Assembly (NCBI GenBank): GCA_013140765.1
Contig: JABFSE010000008.1
Location: 62,001 to 126,000 of the forward strand
Origin: Sulfuriferula sp.
Lineage (GTDB): Bacteria; Pseudomonadota; Gammaproteobacteria; Burkholderiales; Sulfuriferulaceae
DNA length: 64,000 bases
Direction: 5' to 3'
Shown: positions 3,225 through 20,287 of the stretch, in pieces
Layout: every line of letters starts with the position of its first letter
Numbering within the stretch: position 1 is the first letter of the stretch
The notes under the pieces: generated by a model
Told to the model about the DNA's origin: nothing
What the model saw: only the letters and a program-made list of their open reading frames with translations
Databases searched by the model: none
Program-made: the position numbers and the translations under genes

Positions 3225-3240
3225 TGGCACAGCGGTTGCG
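3225..3240 (+). promoter_or_regulatory. Sigma-54 promoter of the pilin gene
   Basis: TGGCAC (3225-3230), five bases, then TTGCG (3236-3240) matches the sigma-54 consensus TGGCAC-N5-TTGCW with the invariant GG and GC correctly spaced. Transcription would begin near 3251, giving a leader of about 50 bases before the pilin ATG at 3303. Pilin genes are known to be transcribed by RpoN with the PilSR two-component system in several proteobacteria. Confidence 0.85.
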
Positions 3241-3302: not shown

Positions 3303-3641
3303 ATGAACCAAATGCAAAAAGGTTTTACCTTGATCGAATTGATGATCGTTGTTGCGATTATCGGTATTTTGGCTGCTGTTGCGTTGCCACAATATAAATC
3401 TTACACTCAAAAATCTGCTGATGCCGCTTGTCTTGCAGAGGCAACAGGTATTGCTCATGGCATGGCGGCCGCAAATGCAAATGCCGATACAGGTCTGCTG
3501 TCAACATCACCATTGAAAGCTTGTGATACAGGTGCCGTACCAACAACACTGAGTACCGCCGTAGTGACTTTTGCAAATGCGGCAAAAGGCACAAAATCAG
3601 TTAGCTGTGATTACAGCACTGGTGCTTGCTCATTAAGCTAA
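3303..3641 (+). CDS. pilA: Type IV major pilin
   Basis: A 112-residue type IVa pilin. The short leader MNQMQKG ends at the prepilin peptidase site G7/F8, followed by the class III motif [20 protein letters not shown], which is the membrane-spanning and assembly helix. E12 is the conserved Glu5 of mature pilin. Four cysteines (C43, C74, C102, C109) can form two disulfides; C102-C109 would close a small C-terminal D-loop. The globular domain is short for a pilin. AGGAG lies 7 bases before the ATG. A sigma-54 promoter precedes and a strong terminator follows, so it is a single-gene unit. A glycosyl ligase gene follows. Confidence 0.95.
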
Positions 3642-13371: not shown

Positions 13372-15516
13372 ATGCCGACTATGACCATTTCACCCCGCGA
13401 CATCAAATTTTTACGCATCATGCCATTACGCGGTCCTAACATTTGGACCTACCGCCCTGTATTAGAAGCATGGGTGGACATTGGTGATTTAGAAGACTCC
13501 CCGTCCAACACCATCCCTGGCTTTAACGACCGTCTTATCGCGCAATTACCCAGCCTCATAGAACACCGCTGTAGCGTGGGTGAGCGCGGTGGCTTTTTGC
13601 AACGTTTACGTGATGGTACTTGGCCTGCACACATACTCGAACACGTCACGCTAGAGTTACAAAATTTAGCAGGTATGCCAGGCGGCTTTGGCAAAGCGCG
13701 TGAGATGGATCGGCGCGGCGTGTATAAAGTCATCGTTCGCGCTTGGCATGAAGATGTCACCCGCGCCAGCCTGCATTACGCACGCGAATTAGTGCTGGCG
13801 GCGATGGATGACCGTCTTTTTGATGTTGATGCCGCCATCGCAAACCTACGTGATTTAGCCGAGTCTAAGCTACTCGGCCCATCCACTTACAGCATTGTTG
13901 ACGCGGCAGATGATCGCAACATTCCTGCGATACGCTTAAACGCAGGTAATTTAGTACAGCTAGGCTACGGCGCGGCACAACGGCGCATCTGGACAGCAGA
14001 AACAGGACAAACCAGTGCCATTGCCGAATCGATTTCACAAGACAAAACACTGACCAAACGACTACTCAAAGACGCTGGCATTCCCGTGCCCGAAGGCGTG
14101 GATGTCAATAGCCCAGCCGATGCTTGGGCAGCCGCTGAAGACATCGGCGTACCTGTTGTGGTCAAACCCTGTAGCGGCAACCACGGTCGCGCGGTATTCA
14201 CTAACCTCACCGAACGCGCAGAAATCGAAGCCGCTTACGATGTCGCACTGGAAGAAGACAGCGGTGTCATTGTAGAACGCTTCATCGAAGGTCAAGAACA
14301 CCGCTTGCTCGTTATCGGCGGCAAGCTCGTCGCCGCCGCACGCGGTGAAATCGCCAGCGTAGTCGGTGATGGCAATCACAGCATTAGCGAACTGATAACA
14401 TTACAGCTTAATTCCGACCCACGCCGTGGCACAACCGAAGAGCACCCGCTCAACCTTATTCGCATTGACAGCGCGGTTAGCCTAGAGCTTGCTCGCCAAG
14501 GCTATGATGCAGATAGCATCGTGGCCGCTGATAGCCTAGTGATAGTGCAACGCATAGGCAATGTTGCGTTTGATTGTACCGACGAAGTCCACCCCAGCAC
14601 TGCCGCTATCGCAGGGCTTGCGGCAAAAATCGTGGGGCTGGATATTGCAGGCATAGATTTGGTGGTTGCCGATATTAGCCGCCCCTTAGCCGAACAAGGC
14701 GGTGCTATCGTCGAAGTCAACGCAGGGCCAGGCTTACTCATGCACCTCAAACCCGCCGCTGGCAAGCCGCGTCCCGTTGGGCAAGCGATAGTCAACCAGC
14801 TATTTTCTGAACAACAAAATGGACGCATTCCTGTTATCGCCGTTGCGGGCAAATCAGACAGTACGGCTGTTGCGCAATTACTGGCGCATTTAGTCTGCTT
14901 AGATAATCAACGTGTGGGATTAGCCAGTCAAGCGGGCTTGTTTATCGGTCGCCGCTTGGTATTAGCAAATAACCGCGCTAACTGGCATGAAGCCCGCAAG
15001 CTATTATTGAACCCACTCATCGAAACAGCCATTATAGAAACACCTGCACGCAGTTTACTCAGCGAAGGTCTGGTATATGACCGTTGTCAGCTCGCTATTT
15101 TGACTGGCATAGATGCCAACGAAGACTTGAACGAATTCGCCATTAACACAGCAGAAAAACGTTTTAACACTTACCGTACTTTTGTCGATGTTGTACTGCC
15201 CTCAGGCGCGGCTATTTTGAATGCCGAAGATGCGCAATTAGTCGAAATGCGTGATCTATGCGACGGCGCAGTGATTTTTTATGCTGAAAACAGCACCTGC
15301 CCCGCTCTAATCCACCATCGCGCCGAACAAGGTAGTGCTGTGACCGTCGTCGAAGGGCATATACGCTTATATCAAGGCGATACCGATACTGATTTTGGCA
15401 GCGTCGCCCAATTCAGCCATATCCCCACGCCCGTATTACTCGCTAGTCTCGCCGCTGCTTGGGCGTTGAATATAGACATAGAACTTATTCGTGCAGGCTT
15501 GCACGCTTACCCTTAG
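13372..15516 (+). CDS. cphA': Cyanophycin synthetase-like protein with degenerate Mur-ligase P-loop (CphA')
   Basis: A protein of 714 residues (711 if translation starts at the ATG at 13381). It has the CphA N-terminal domain (LRGPNIWTYRPVLEAWVDIG), an ATP-grasp domain at about 210-480 (VVVKPCSGNHGRAV, VEVNAGPGL), and a shortened Mur-ligase-like domain. At about residue 490 the ATP-binding loop that is GTNGKTT in the neighbour CphA reads GKSDSTA, losing the lysine-threonine pair. The C-terminal Mur lid domain is also missing. It should therefore catalyse only the ATP-grasp step (peptide bond to Asp), or use Asp-Arg dipeptides as cyanobacterial CphA2 does. A TATAAT at 13362-13367 so close to the first ATG favours the start at 13381. 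Confidence 0.88.
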   Translation: MPTMTISPRDIKFLRIMPLRGPNIWTYRPVLEAWVDIGDLEDSPSNTIPGFNDRLIAQLPSLIEHRCSVGERGGFLQRLRDGTWPAHILEHVTLELQNLAGMPGGFGKAREMDRRGVYKVIVRAWHEDVTRASLHYARELVLAAMDDRLFDVDAAIANLRDLAESKLLGPSTYSIVDAADDRNIPAIRLNAGNLVQLGYGAAQRRIWTAETGQTSAIAESISQDKTLTKRLLKDAGIPVPEGVDVNSPADAWAAAEDIGVPVVVKPCSGNHGRAVFTNLTERAEIEAAYDVALEEDSGVIVERFIEGQEHRLLVIGGKLVAAARGEIASVVGDGNHSISELITLQLNSDPRRGTTEEHPLNLIRIDSAVSLELARQGYDADSIVAADSLVIVQRIGNVAFDCTDEVHPSTAAIAGLAAKIVGLDIAGIDLVVADISRPLAEQGGAIVEVNAGPGLLMHLKPAAGKPRPVGQAIVNQLFSEQQNGRIPVIAVAGKSDSTAVAQLLAHLVCLDNQRVGLASQAGLFIGRRLVLANNRANWHEARKLLLNPLIETAIIETPARSLLSEGLVYDRCQLAILTGIDANEDLNEFAINTAEKRFNTYRTFVDVVLPSGAAILNAEDAQLVEMRDLCDGAVIFYAENSTCPALIHHRAEQGSAVTVVEGHIRLYQGDTDTDFGSVAQFSHIPTPVLLASLAAAWALNIDIELIRAGLHAYP

Positions 15517-15524
15517 GCTAACTC

Positions 15525-18092
15525 ATGGAAATCTCTCGCATACGCGCCTTACGCGGTCCTAATTTATGGAGTCGGCACACCTCAGTGGAAGCTATCGTGC
15601 GTTGCACGCCTAGCGAATCTGACCTTATCAACCAGCCAGATTTTGAAACCCGCTTACGGGCGCGTTTTCCCGCGATAGGCGCATTAGAACCCATAGGCGG
15701 CAACCATCATATATCTATGGCGCACGCATTGGAAGTTGCCGCGTTGGAATTACAAGCTCATGCAGGGTGCTCTGTTACTTTTAGCCGCACCACGCCCACG
15801 ATAGACGCAGGCGTATATCAAATCGCTGTCGAATATACAGAAGAAAGCGTGGGTCGATTAGCCCTAGATTACGCATTGCAACTGTGCTTCGCCGCAACCA
15901 ATAACACGCCGTTTGATGCCGATGCCGCGCTCCATGCGCTACGCGAGCTAGATGAAGATATTCGCCTAGGACCCAGCACAGGTGCTATCGTACAAGCCGC
16001 CGTTAATCGCGGTATGCCGTACCGCCGCTTAACCGATGGTAGCATGGTGCAAATCGGCTGGGGTAGCCGCCAACGTCGCATACTCGCCGCCGAAACTGAC
16101 GCGACCAGCGCCGTCGCCGAAGCCATAGCCCAAGATAAAGAGCTGACCAAAATGTTGCTTGAAGCAGCTTGCGTGCCCGTGCCCGCAGGTCGCCCTGTGA
16201 TCGATGCTGAGGACGCATGGGTCGCCGCGCAAAAAATCGGCTGTGCAGTCGCTGTCAAACCACAATTTGGCAATCAAGGTAAGGGGGTCGCTGTCAATCT
16301 GGAAACCCGCGAACAAGTCATAGCCGCTTATCACGCCGCCAGCAAAATCAGTACCGAAGTCATCGTTGAACGCTACATCACTGGGCACGATTACCGTTTA
16401 TTAGTCATAGGCAACCAGCTCGTTGCCGCCGCCCGCCGCGACCCGCCGCATGTATTTGGCGATGGCGTACATAGCATTGCCGAATTAGTCGCCAACATCA
16501 ATTTAGACCCTCGTCGCAGTGATGGGCACGCCACGTCATTAAGCAAAATCCGCTTGGATGACATTGCCTTGGCAACACTGACTAAACAAAATTTCAGCGT
16601 CGATAGCATTCCCGCTATGGGGGCGTTAGTCGTGTTGCGCAACAACGCCAATCTGAGCACAGGCGGCACGGCAACCGACGTGACCGACGACGTGCATCCT
16701 GAACTCGCTGCCCGTGCCGTGGATGCGGCGCGGATGATAGGGCTGGATATTTGCGGCGTAGATGTATTATGCAATAGCGTACATCAACCGCTAGAACAAC
16801 AAGGCGGCGGTATCGTTGAAGTCAATGCCGCACCTGGCTTGCGTATGCACCTCGCGCCCTCGTTCGGCAAACCGCGTGATGTGGGCGCGGCGATTATTAA
16901 CAGCATGTTTGCCGCTGATGACAATGGACGTATTCCCGTCGTCGCCGTCGCAGGCACTAACGGCAAAACCACCACCGTGCGCCTGACCGCCCACCTGCTC
17001 ACCCACAGCGGCTTGCGAGTCGGCATGACTAACTCCGACGGTGTTTACATTAGCGGGCTACGCATAGACACAGGCGACTGTAGCGGCCCTAAAAGTGCCC
17101 GCAACGTACTAGCTCATCCCGAAGTCGATGCCGCCGTATTAGAAACCGCCCGTGGCGGCGTATTGCGCGAAGGCTTGGCTTTCGACCATTGCGATGTGGC
17201 GATAGTCACCAATATCGGCATAGGCGATCATCTAGGCTTGAATTACATTAACACGACCGACGAGCTGGCAGTGGTGAAGCGTATCATCGTTGAGAACGTC
17301 GCACCGCAAGGTTACGCCGTACTCAACGCTGCCGACCCTGCGGTAGTCAAAATGGCAGACAGTTGCCCAGGTAAGGTTATTTACTTTGCCCAAGAACGCC
17401 ACCACCCTGTCATTGCCACCCACTGCGCACGCGGGCAACGTGTTATCTTTGTCGAAGACGGCTACATCGTCGCTAAACAAGGCGATGTTATCGAACGCAT
17501 TGCGCTGGCTTATATCCCGCTAACGCGCAATGGCAGTATCGGCTTTCAAATCGACAACGCGATGGGCGCAATAGGCGCGGCATGGGCGTTGGGGCTAGAT
17601 TGGGCTATCATCCGCCGAGGAGTGGGCGATTTTGTCAACGATGCGCTCACCGCACCAGGGCGTTTTAACGTATTCGACTATCGCGGCGCAACACTCATTG
17701 CTGACTACGGACACAACCCCGATGCCATCATTGCACTGGTTGCCGCGATAGAGCGCATCCCCGCACTACAACGCCACGTAGTCATTAGCGGCGCAGGCGA
17801 CAGACGCGATCAAGACATCAGCCAACAAACCGAAATACTCGGTGACAAATTCGACCAAATAATCCTCTATCAAGACCAATGCCAACGCGGTCGTGCTGAC
17901 GGCGAAGTCTTAGCCTTATTACGCGCTGGGCTGGTTCATGCCACACGGGTTAAACAAATTGATGAGATAAACGGTGAATTTAACGCCATAGATTTAGCAT
18001 TATCACGCCTACAAGCAGGCGACGTGTGCCTGATATTGATAGACCAAGTTGAAGCAGCATTAGCGCACATTGCCGCTAGGATAGCGACATAG
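15525..18092 (+). CDS. cphA: Cyanophycin synthetase CphA
   Basis: An 855-residue enzyme that makes cyanophycin, an Asp backbone with Arg side chains, from free amino acids and ATP. Domains in order: CphA N-terminal domain (IRALRGPNLW at residue 6), ATP-grasp (about 220-470, with VKPQFGNQGKGVAVNL), Mur-ligase-like central domain with intact P-loop AGTNGKTTT near residue 477, and a C-terminal lid domain with DYGHNPDAI and GAGDRRDQD. All key motifs are present and the length is normal. It starts 8 bases after the stop of cphA', so the two form one operon. The pair layout (cphA', cphA) is typical of betaproteobacteria. Confidence 0.95.
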   Translation: MEISRIRALRGPNLWSRHTSVEAIVRCTPSESDLINQPDFETRLRARFPAIGALEPIGGNHHISMAHALEVAALELQAHAGCSVTFSRTTPTIDAGVYQIAVEYTEESVGRLALDYALQLCFAATNNTPFDADAALHALRELDEDIRLGPSTGAIVQAAVNRGMPYRRLTDGSMVQIGWGSRQRRILAAETDATSAVAEAIAQDKELTKMLLEAACVPVPAGRPVIDAEDAWVAAQKIGCAVAVKPQFGNQGKGVAVNLETREQVIAAYHAASKISTEVIVERYITGHDYRLLVIGNQLVAAARRDPPHVFGDGVHSIAELVANINLDPRRSDGHATSLSKIRLDDIALATLTKQNFSVDSIPAMGALVVLRNNANLSTGGTATDVTDDVHPELAARAVDAARMIGLDICGVDVLCNSVHQPLEQQGGGIVEVNAAPGLRMHLAPSFGKPRDVGAAIINSMFAADDNGRIPVVAVAGTNGKTTTVRLTAHLLTHSGLRVGMTNSDGVYISGLRIDTGDCSGPKSARNVLAHPEVDAAVLETARGGVLREGLAFDHCDVAIVTNIGIGDHLGLNYINTTDELAVVKRIIVENVAPQGYAVLNAADPAVVKMADSCPGKVIYFAQERHHPVIATHCARGQRVIFVEDGYIVAKQGDVIERIALAYIPLTRNGSIGFQIDNAMGAIGAAWALGLDWAIIRRGVGDFVNDALTAPGRFNVFDYRGATLIADYGHNPDAIIALVAAIERIPALQRHVVISGAGDRRDQDISQQTEILGDKFDQIILYQDQCQRGRADGEVLALLRAGLVHATRVKQIDEINGEFNAIDLALSRLQAGDVCLILIDQVEAALAHIAARIAT

Positions 18093-18130
18093 CGTTTCAC
18101 GTTCACGCACTCAGTGCGCGTACAAAAATG

Positions 18131-18166
18131 GTGCACTAATGCCGCATATAGCACCTTATTTGTGCT
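18131..18166 (+). promoter_or_regulatory. NtrC-like enhancer palindromes
   Basis: Bases 18150-18166 read AGCAC-CTTATTT-GTGCT, a perfect inverted repeat with the GCAC-N7-GTGC geometry of NtrC sites (consensus TGCACC-N5-GGTGCA). A second, weaker block GGTGCACTAATGCCGCATA spans 18130-18148. They lie about 80-115 bases upstream of the predicted sigma-54 start site, a normal enhancer distance. A GCACTCAGTGC palindrome further up (about 18108) may be another half-site cluster or the end structure of cphA mRNA. Confidence 0.55.
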
Positions 18167-18219
18167 GAGATTAGCGTGATACAAAATCATAACTATATGT
18201 TTATTAAAAACATTTTATA

Positions 18220-18235
18220 TGGCACAACAATTGCT
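18220..18235 (+). promoter_or_regulatory. Sigma-54 promoter downstream of cphA
   Basis: TGGCAC (18220-18225), AACAA, TTGCT (18231-18235) is a full match to the sigma-54 consensus TGGCAC-N5-TTGCW. The predicted start is near 18246-18247. The first gene downstream starts at 18389, after a strong terminator at 18306-18332, so the promoter appears to serve only the short interval between. Confidence 0.82.
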
Positions 18236-18246
18236 ATTATGATAGT

Positions 18247-18332
18247 GGGGTGTGAGGGTTAGTGATAATTCTTACGCACCGTTTTCATCCTCCATGCGGT
18301 ATTAAGGGCATCTTCGGATGCCCTCTTTTTTT
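18247..18332 (+). ncRNA. Candidate sigma-54-dependent small RNA
   Basis: The interval from the predicted start to the end of the T-run is about 86 bases and holds no credible reading frame. It can fold as two hairpins: 18249-18258 with 18271-18280 (GGTGTG pairing CGCACC with one G-U, then a mismatch and further weak pairs), and the terminator hairpin at 18306-18323. Between them 18281-18305 is predicted to be single-stranded and contains TCATCCTCCATG, whose CCTCC is complementary to a GGAGG ribosome binding site. This is the layout of an Hfq-type base-pairing RNA. With NtrC-like sites upstream it may be analogous in regulation to the NtrC/sigma-54-dependent NrsZ RNA of Pseudomonas; no sequence relation is claimed. 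Confidence 0.6.
18306..18332 (+). terminator. Rho-independent terminator of the candidate small RNA
   Basis: GGGCATC (18306-18312), the stable tetraloop TTCG, and GATGCCC (18317-18323) form a perfect 7-bp GC-rich stem, followed by TCTTTTTTT. It is 210 bases after the cphA stop and 57 before the next start, so it ends a transcript that begins between them; read-through cphA mRNA would also stop here. Confidence 0.93.
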
Positions 18333-18388
18333 GCGACGACGGCATAACAACGCGTACAATACGTTTTTTCGTTTTTACCCACGCCACC

Positions 18389-20287
18389 GTGATACGCCTT
18401 ACTCAGCTCACCCTTGCCCGCGCCGCTAAAGTCTTGTTGGAAAACACCAGCCTGTCTATCCACCCAGGTCAGAAAGTAGGCTTAACAGGCGCAAATGGCA
18501 CAGGAAAATCCAGCTTATTCGCACTATTACGCGGCGAATTGATAGCGGAAGCGGGGGATTTGTATCTACCCGCAACGTGGGTAGTCGCGCATGTGGCACA
18601 AGACACGCCTGCACTGCAACAAGCGGCATTGGATTTCACCCTCGACGGCGATACCCGATTACGCCACATCGAACATCAGCTCACTTTAGCCGAAGCCGCT
18701 AACGACGGTCATCGTGTGGGTGAACTACACGCCGAATTAAGTGCCATAGACGGCTACTCAGCCCGCGCCCGTGCCGCTGAATTACTGCACGGGCTAGGTT
18801 TTAGCGATACTGATTTAACAAAATCAGTCGCCGCGTTCTCAGGTGGCTGGCGCGTGCGGCTCAATTTATCACAAGCACTCATGAGTCGTTCAGATTTATT
18901 ACTGCTAGACGAACCCACCAACCATCTCGATTTAGATGCGGTTATCTGGCTGGAAGGCTGGCTCAACAGCTATGCGGGCACATTATTGCTAATTTCACAT
19001 GATAGAGATTTTCTTGATGCCGTTACCACGCACATAGCCCATATTGAACAACGCAATATCAAGCTCTACACAGGGTGCTATTCTGATTTTGAACGCCAAC
19101 GCGCCGCCCATCTTGCGGTACAGCAAGCCCTGTTTGATAAACAGCAACGCGACCGCGCTCATTTAGAGCGTTTTATTGAACGTTTCCGCGCTAAAGCGAC
19201 TAAAGCCCGCCAAGCCCAAAGCCGCATCAAAGCCCTAGCGCGGATGGAAGACATTAGTGCTGCGCATGTTGATTCAGTTTTCAGCTTTAGTTTCCGCGAG
19301 CCCATCAGCGCACCCGACCCACTGCTAGATTTACGCCACGCCAGCGTCGGTTATAGCACGCAAGCATTGATTGCGAATATCGAACTCACCGTGCGTACAG
19401 GTGAACGTATCGGCTTATTAGGACGCAACGGCGCAGGCAAATCCACGCTGATTAAACTACTCGCTGGCGAACTTGCGCTATTGCATGGCACACGCACTGA
19501 AGGCAAAGGCTTGAGCATAGGCTATTTTGCGCAACACCAGTTAGAACAACTACGCCCTCAAGAATCCGCATTGCAACACATTATGCGGCTTGCGCCTGAC
19601 ACCCGCGAACAAGAATTACGCGATTTTTTAGGCGGCTTTGATTTCCGAGGCGATGCCGCTACCCAGCCCTGTGCGCCGTTTTCAGGCGGTGAAAAATCAC
19701 GCCTCGCACTCGCTTTGTTAATATGGCAACGCCCAAATTTACTCTTGTTAGACGAACCCACCAACCACTTGGATTTGGACATGCGCCAAGCACTCAACTA
19801 CGCGCTACAAGATTATCAAGGTGGCGTAGTGCTGGTATCGCACGATCGCGCTTTGCTATCCACTACCTGCGATCGCTTTCTCATCGTCCACGACCATAAA
19901 GCTACCGACTTTGACGGCGATTTAGATGATTACCGTGACTGGCTCAACCAGCAACGCATCAATTTAACAGCCAGCAACCCAGACAAACTAGAGCGCAAAC
20001 AACAACGCGAGCAAAGCGAACAACAGCGTCAGGCATTATTAGCCCAGCGTCGCCCACTCATTAAAGAAATCGACAAAATCGACCAACAACTCACATTATG
20101 GCAAGCAGAAAAAAGCCAGTTAGACAGCCAATTAACCGATACCCAACTCTATGAAGTAGCGCAACGCCTGACCTTACAAGACCTATTAAAACGCCAAGGC
20201 GAATTAAGCAATCAAATAACAACCGCCGAAGAACGTTGGCTAAGTCTCAACGAAACACTAGAAACCTTGGATGCCAGCACGCACTAA
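18389..20287 (+). CDS. yheS: ABC-F ATPase YheS
   Basis: A 632-residue soluble protein with two ABC ATPase domains and no membrane segments, so an ABC-F translation factor rather than a transporter. Walker A motifs are GANGTGKSS (about 35-43) and GRNGAGKST (about 349-357); the signature sequences FSGGWRVRLNLSQAL and FSGGEKSRLALALL are followed by LLLDEPTNHLDLD in each half. The C-terminal 90 residues are a Gln/Lys/Glu-rich coiled coil. The overall sequence follows YheS of E. coli closely. ABC-F proteins bind the ribosomal E site and relieve stalled complexes. The start is a GTG giving MIRLTQLTLARAAK. Confidence 0.93.
   Translation: MIRLTQLTLARAAKVLLENTSLSIHPGQKVGLTGANGTGKSSLFALLRGELIAEAGDLYLPATWVVAHVAQDTPALQQAALDFTLDGDTRLRHIEHQLTLAEAANDGHRVGELHAELSAIDGYSARARAAELLHGLGFSDTDLTKSVAAFSGGWRVRLNLSQALMSRSDLLLLDEPTNHLDLDAVIWLEGWLNSYAGTLLLISHDRDFLDAVTTHIAHIEQRNIKLYTGCYSDFERQRAAHLAVQQALFDKQQRDRAHLERFIERFRAKATKARQAQSRIKALARMEDISAAHVDSVFSFSFREPISAPDPLLDLRHASVGYSTQALIANIELTVRTGERIGLLGRNGAGKSTLIKLLAGELALLHGTRTEGKGLSIGYFAQHQLEQLRPQESALQHIMRLAPDTREQELRDFLGGFDFRGDAATQPCAPFSGGEKSRLALALLIWQRPNLLLLDEPTNHLDLDMRQALNYALQDYQGGVVLVSHDRALLSTTCDRFLIVHDHKATDFDGDLDDYRDWLNQQRINLTASNPDKLERKQQREQSEQQRQALLAQRRPLIKEIDKIDQQLTLWQAEKSQLDSQLTDTQLYEVAQRLTLQDLLKRQGELSNQITTAEERWLSLNETLETLDASTH

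Follow-up and report, generated by a model that had tools for sequence, protein, structure and literature searches.

Genes and features at the locus

The window, by which we mean the whole 64-kb stretch of Sulfuriferula DNA that was analyzed, carries a predicted small RNA gene between a cyanophycin synthetase gene (NF010623) and an ABC-F gene. The RNA lies 127 nt past the stop codon of cphA. The ABC-F gene starts with a GTG at 18389, 57 nt past the T-run of the terminator, which is the distance the initial annotation had given. Table 1 lists the features of the locus. Upstream, at 13372-18092, two cyanophycin synthetase genes lie side by side; the product of the first (714 aa) matches model positions 1-714 of 871 and has no match to the Pfam Mur ligase domain.

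Table 1. Positions in the window of the features discussed in the text
Feature	Position	Strand	Remarks
NtrC-type box GCACCTTATTTGTGC, palindrome GCAC-N7-GTGC, presumed enhancer	18151..18165	+	consensus match
Sigma-54 promoter, -24 TGGCAC / -12 TTGC	18220..18234	+	perfect consensus TGGCACAACAATTGC, no mismatch
Predicted small RNA, about 87 nt	18246..18332	+	start placed by prediction 12 nt past the -12 C; fold z = -3.8
RNA hairpin 1	18250..18277	+	covariation among congeners
Nearly invariant linear stretch TTCATCCTCCATGCGGTAT, anti-Shine-Dalgarno core CCTCC	18284..18302	+	presumed pairing region
Intrinsic terminator, TTCG loop, T7 tail	18305..18332	+	stem 18305-18324, T-run 18326-18332
Sigma-70-like site of the ABC-F gene, TTGCGA-N18-TACAAT	18331..18360	+	outside the RNA; 9/12 matches, attainable by chance

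The predicted RNA has three parts. A 5′ hairpin with covarying pairs comes first, a linear stretch that hardly varies, UUCAUCCUCCAUGCGGUAU, follows, and the RNA ends in a terminator with a U tail. Its fold has an energy of -32.1 kcal/mol (z = -3.8), and none of 200 shuffled sequences is equally stable. This agrees with the initial annotation, which had proposed an RNA of about 86 nt that ends in a strong terminator with a TTCG loop.

The same annotation had seen no open reading frame between promoter and terminator. Indeed, the open reading frames listed for the window include none of at least 90 aa over the RNA. The source species has a short ATG-CGG-TAT-TAA frame whose ATG lies inside the pairing region; this frame is lost in relatives, and we rejected it as a small coding sequence. 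A search of the window and 14 relatives against Rfam, a check that the annotation had suggested, gave no match to the RNA at the gathering threshold. The matches below the threshold are weak and belong to assorted small RNAs.

Promoter and NtrC box

The promoter was described initially as a full-consensus sigma-54 promoter, and it is free of mismatches. Its distance from the RNA and its fit to the consensus are those of a sigma-54-dependent small RNA, and rpoN is encoded in the genome. Perfect TGGCAC-N5-TTGC sites occur twice in the 64 kb, here and at 3225-3239. The second site, also on the + strand, is followed after 63 nt by an open reading frame for a type IV prepilin-like protein, at 3303. 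Type IV prepilin genes are classical sigma-54 targets, as in the PilR/sigma-54 control of pilA.

When one mismatch is allowed, the window contains 12 matches against a chance mean of 8.9, which is within chance. Hence the motif alone is weak evidence, and it is the conservation of the promoter that carries weight. The -24/-12 element is in place in all 13 congener copies for which upstream sequence is available.

Upstream of the promoter lies a box that falls within the interval of the initial annotation and was not named there. GCACCTTATTTGTGC fits the NtrC consensus TGCACCAnnnTGGTGCA (PMC8743547). In the five closest species the box is perfect and equally spaced, starting 69 bp before the -24 element. 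One further copy (L013) also has a perfect box, but further upstream. Across 38 members of the RNA family, which are related and thus not independent, a box with at most one mismatch is found in 24 (2.3 expected) and a perfect box in 7 (0.10 expected). In some members (L006, L007, L009 and those of families f6, f7 and f31) the box is degenerate or missing, so these members may use a different activator.

We searched the 18 genomes of the genus for the combined pattern of box plus promoter. Five genomes have the pattern ahead of the RNA, four ahead of amtB and two ahead of a nasA-like nitrate reductase gene; the amtB and nasA-like identities come from reading the translations. Further matches are found at an ATP-grasp gene, at a site (L171) that has no clear gene and, in some cases, apparently within coding sequence. 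The reversed pattern, our control, has no match in the same 18 genomes.

The source genome encodes both RpoN and NtrC, with ntrC on another contig (G000:C10) than the RNA (C25). It also encodes two Hfq proteins, near 74492 on G000:C28 and near 128268 on G000:C6. These paralogues are 71% and 59% identical to the Hfq query from E. coli, in a genome of 2.2 Mb.

Conservation within the genus

A search of relatives at the DNA level shows that congeners share a core at 18284-18334. With an RNA covariance model (R1) we then find exactly one copy of the RNA in each of 14 of the 18 genus genomes sampled (E-values from 5e-20 to 4e-9). Two nearly complete genomes that have rpoN and ntrC (G004 and G009) contain no convincing copy. 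G009 and G002 give weak R1 scores, but the pairing region is missing there and we did not count them as members.

The alignment falls into three zones. The 5′ hairpin varies freely in sequence while its pairing is kept, the second zone is the nearly invariant YUUCAUCCUCCAUGCGGUAUU, and the third is the terminator. In hairpin 1, 10 of the 11 consensus pairs show double-sided changes, and 94.8% of cells are paired. For both helices together the paired fraction is 95.6%, compared to 35-64% when the partner is slid. No shuffled alignment reaches the covariation score of the RNA. The terminator stem is conserved as well, including a double-sided exchange between G-C and A-U. Thirteen of the 14 members share the stretch TTCATCCTCCATGCGGTAT letter for letter, and the remaining one (L014) has two changes. 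Thus the comparison that was proposed with the initial annotation comes out in its favor: promoter, structure and terminator are kept in relatives while the flanks differ.

Relatives beyond the genus

R1 also gives weak matches in other families of the order. A sigma-54 promoter precedes these matches at the corresponding position, and UUUUCAUCCUCCUCC replaces UUUUCAUCCUCCAUG. From 14 members of other families we built a second model (R2), leaving out the promoter, and ran it on 399 genomes of the order. Of 13 R2 loci examined that were not used in building the model, 10 have TGGC-N7-YTGC 10-12 nt ahead of the RNA, against a background of 3e-4 per position. The other three comprise one near-match promoter and two loci without.

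Probable relatives of the RNA with the promoter in place thus occur in about eight families besides the source family, including f13, f48, f37 and f25, whose promoters had already been seen when the R2 members were chosen. A run of R2 on 39 further genomes yields two matches above 40 bits, both copies of f37 members. The weaker matches in these 39 genomes, below about 40 bits, lack a promoter at the expected position, and several of them turn out to be 3′ ends of amtB; we discarded them. A plasmid search with the relative from f13 gave no match.

The RNA of the window itself scores 39.1 bits with R2, near the noise level of 38.3. Judged by promoter, layout and shared core, its common descent with the RNAs of other families is probable.

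As a separate observation, seven loci (L124, L133, L136, L350, L353, L356 and L358) have a CU-rich stretch and a terminator right after the stop codon of an amtB-like gene. These 3′ ends are candidates for a nitrogen RNA derived from a 3′ untranslated region.

Alternative explanations of the locus

The initial annotation had linked the RNA to cphA′/cphA, and it could be tied specifically to cyanophycin synthesis, for example by regulating these genes in cis or in trans. Cyanophycin is a nitrogen store, and cphA ends close to the RNA. However, among the congeners examined cphA adjoins the RNA in the source species only; the upstream neighbor in the others encodes a TPR protein, an EamA transporter or MutL. 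Furthermore, most of the searched genomes with a close CphA relative, which are mostly betaproteobacteria, yield no convincing member of the wider family. Alternatively, the RNA could belong to the ABC-F gene as its 5′ leader or attenuator. Transcription would then start at the sigma-54 promoter and be subject to the conditional termination that is known in leaders of ribosome-protection ABC-F genes. Seven of the 14 congeners, source genome included, do have a codirectional ABC-F gene downstream. In other congeners a SpoIIAA-like gene lies downstream, and the complete unit exists without ABC-F, before a SpoIIAA-like gene or after mutL. Past the terminator there is also a separate promoter-like site for the ABC-F gene, of which GCGTACAAT is retained at the same position in the closest relatives (L002-L005). 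The neighbors change and the RNA unit stays, hence the RNA appears to be maintained as an independent gene. For the same reason both the cphA link and the leader explanation fail; we regard a leader as very unlikely and a specific tie to cyanophycin as highly improbable.

Could the unit lack a function altogether? A chance promoter match followed by the ordinary terminator of the cphA operon would agree with the one-mismatch motif count, which is at chance level. Yet this is excluded by the promoter, the covarying hairpin and the linear stretch, which are conserved in 14 genomes, and we give it next to no credence. A different alternative keeps the sigma-54 small RNA and changes its activator: if a protein other than NtrC acts at the promoter, the signal would not be nitrogen. 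Several candidate activators of sigma-54 are encoded in the genome, with 24 matches to the ntrC model, counting partial and response-regulator-only ones, and some members have a weak box or none. On the other hand, the sequence of the box at 18151-18165 agrees with the NtrC consensus, its spacing does not vary among the closest species, and amtB and a nitrate reductase gene are preceded by the same module. We therefore think a different activator unlikely.

A probable nitrogen-starvation small RNA

The locus is probably a gene in its own right, whose product is a small RNA that acts in trans in the response to nitrogen starvation. This reading builds on the promoter in 13 of 13 congener copies, the enrichment of the NtrC box, the box-plus-promoter pattern shared with amtB and the nasA-like gene, the covariation, the changing flanks, the presence of RpoN, NtrC and Hfq, and the promoter in 10 of 13 held-out loci. 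As far as comparative sequence evidence goes, it upholds the main proposal of the initial annotation, a sigma-54 small RNA gene that stands on its own.

When nitrogen is short, phosphorylated NtrC at 18151-18165 would activate sigma-54 polymerase at 18220-18234. The RNA of about 87 nt would then be made, and Hfq would bind it via the terminator tail. Translation of several mRNAs would be blocked when the CAUCCUCC region pairs with their Shine-Dalgarno regions (complement GGAGGAUG), with UUCAUCCUCCAUGCGG as the RNA stretch taken to pair with start regions in this multi-target repression. Hairpin 1 may shield the 5′ end and delimit the pairing region.

For the repression of targets we reason from the form of the RNA. 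CAUCCUCC lies outside the consensus helices and is unpaired in most predicted folds. An exposed CCUCC stretch and a U-tailed terminator (here with a tail of seven T) are two traits of Hfq-dependent anti-Shine-Dalgarno small RNAs, and both are present. Thus the RNA has the look of an Hfq-dependent repressor of translation.

Start regions of the source genome, ranked by duplex energy, come out no better than with shuffled seeds. Contiguous pairing is modestly enriched: at the loosest cut, 60 start regions pair, compared to 27-43 for shuffled seeds. The shuffled seeds do not keep CCUCC, so this excess may reflect Shine-Dalgarno pairing in general. We rejected two candidate targets. The pairing with nasT is found in the source species only and is not conserved, and that with murE, through GGAGGATGAA before a start codon, is likewise confined to the source species. 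Many matches to the GGAGGATGAA pattern are the opposite strand of the RNA gene itself.

Relation to known small RNAs

Small RNAs of the nitrogen response have been described in Pseudomonas. NrsZ of P. aeruginosa is controlled by NtrB/C and RpoN, NfiS of P. stutzeri has a sigma-54 site, and NfiR is linked to NtrC binding (PMC8395346, PMC6606865). The RNA of the window resembles them in belonging, on our reading, to the same response. However, NrsZ is about 226 nt long, is processed and lies beside ntrC, whereas our RNA has about 87 nt, a different locus (ntrC is on a separate contig) and no Rfam match. In addition NrsZ activates rhlA, while for our RNA we infer repression.

In its pairing region the RNA is closer to S17 of Bordetella, which together with Hfq acts as a repressor at ribosome-binding sites (PMC11722255). 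S17 and its family, RF02278, share the CAUCCUCC(UCC) stretch ahead of the terminator. S17, however, is made from a sigma-A promoter and by RNase E processing, in contrast to the sigma-54 promoter found here. A search of the source genome with RF02278 (cut-off 50 bits) does not list the RNA, and RF02278 is not among the Rfam matches up to E = 10 at 18180-18360. The genome contains a separate RF02278/S17-like RNA at G000:C19:44830-44892 (L107), which scores 45.8 bits against the cut-off of 50, and similar copies below the threshold occur in most of the genus.

SorY (RF02651), NmsRb (RF02877), ncS16 (RF02866) and CcsR1 (RF02791) also combine a 5′ hairpin, a CU-rich stretch and a terminator, but our RNA scores far below gathering with all four. 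For SorY it reaches 20.7 bits, and L119 reaches 31.7 bits, against a cut-off of 111. NcS25 of Burkholderia cenocepacia is alike in being a small RNA that pairs with a Shine-Dalgarno sequence; it has no sigma-54 motif upstream and does not respond to nitrogen depletion (PMC10117139).

The RNA is thus new as a family and not as a kind, since nitrogen RNAs under sigma-54/NtrC are already known and CU-rich small RNAs with this layout are widespread. The initial annotation had called it undescribed. With no Rfam family and no description found in the open-access literature (most subscription papers fell outside this scope), that part of the claim stands to this extent; the link to cphA, on which it was framed, does not.

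A wider scheme is possible, though we hold it to be doubtful. RF02278/S17 and one ancestral sigma-54/NtrC small RNA, spread over about nine families, may belong to one set of CCUCC RNAs in which the latter responds to nitrogen starvation. Different RNAs would then silence a shared pool of ribosome-binding sites under different stresses.

If our main reading is true, part of a large bacterial order gains a nitrogen-starvation small RNA comparable to NrsZ of Pseudomonas. Its regulatory cassette is readable from the sequence and its candidate pairing region is clear, so that targets can be sought directly. Moreover, the covariance models find members across families, and the promoter provides an independent feature that separates them from look-alikes.
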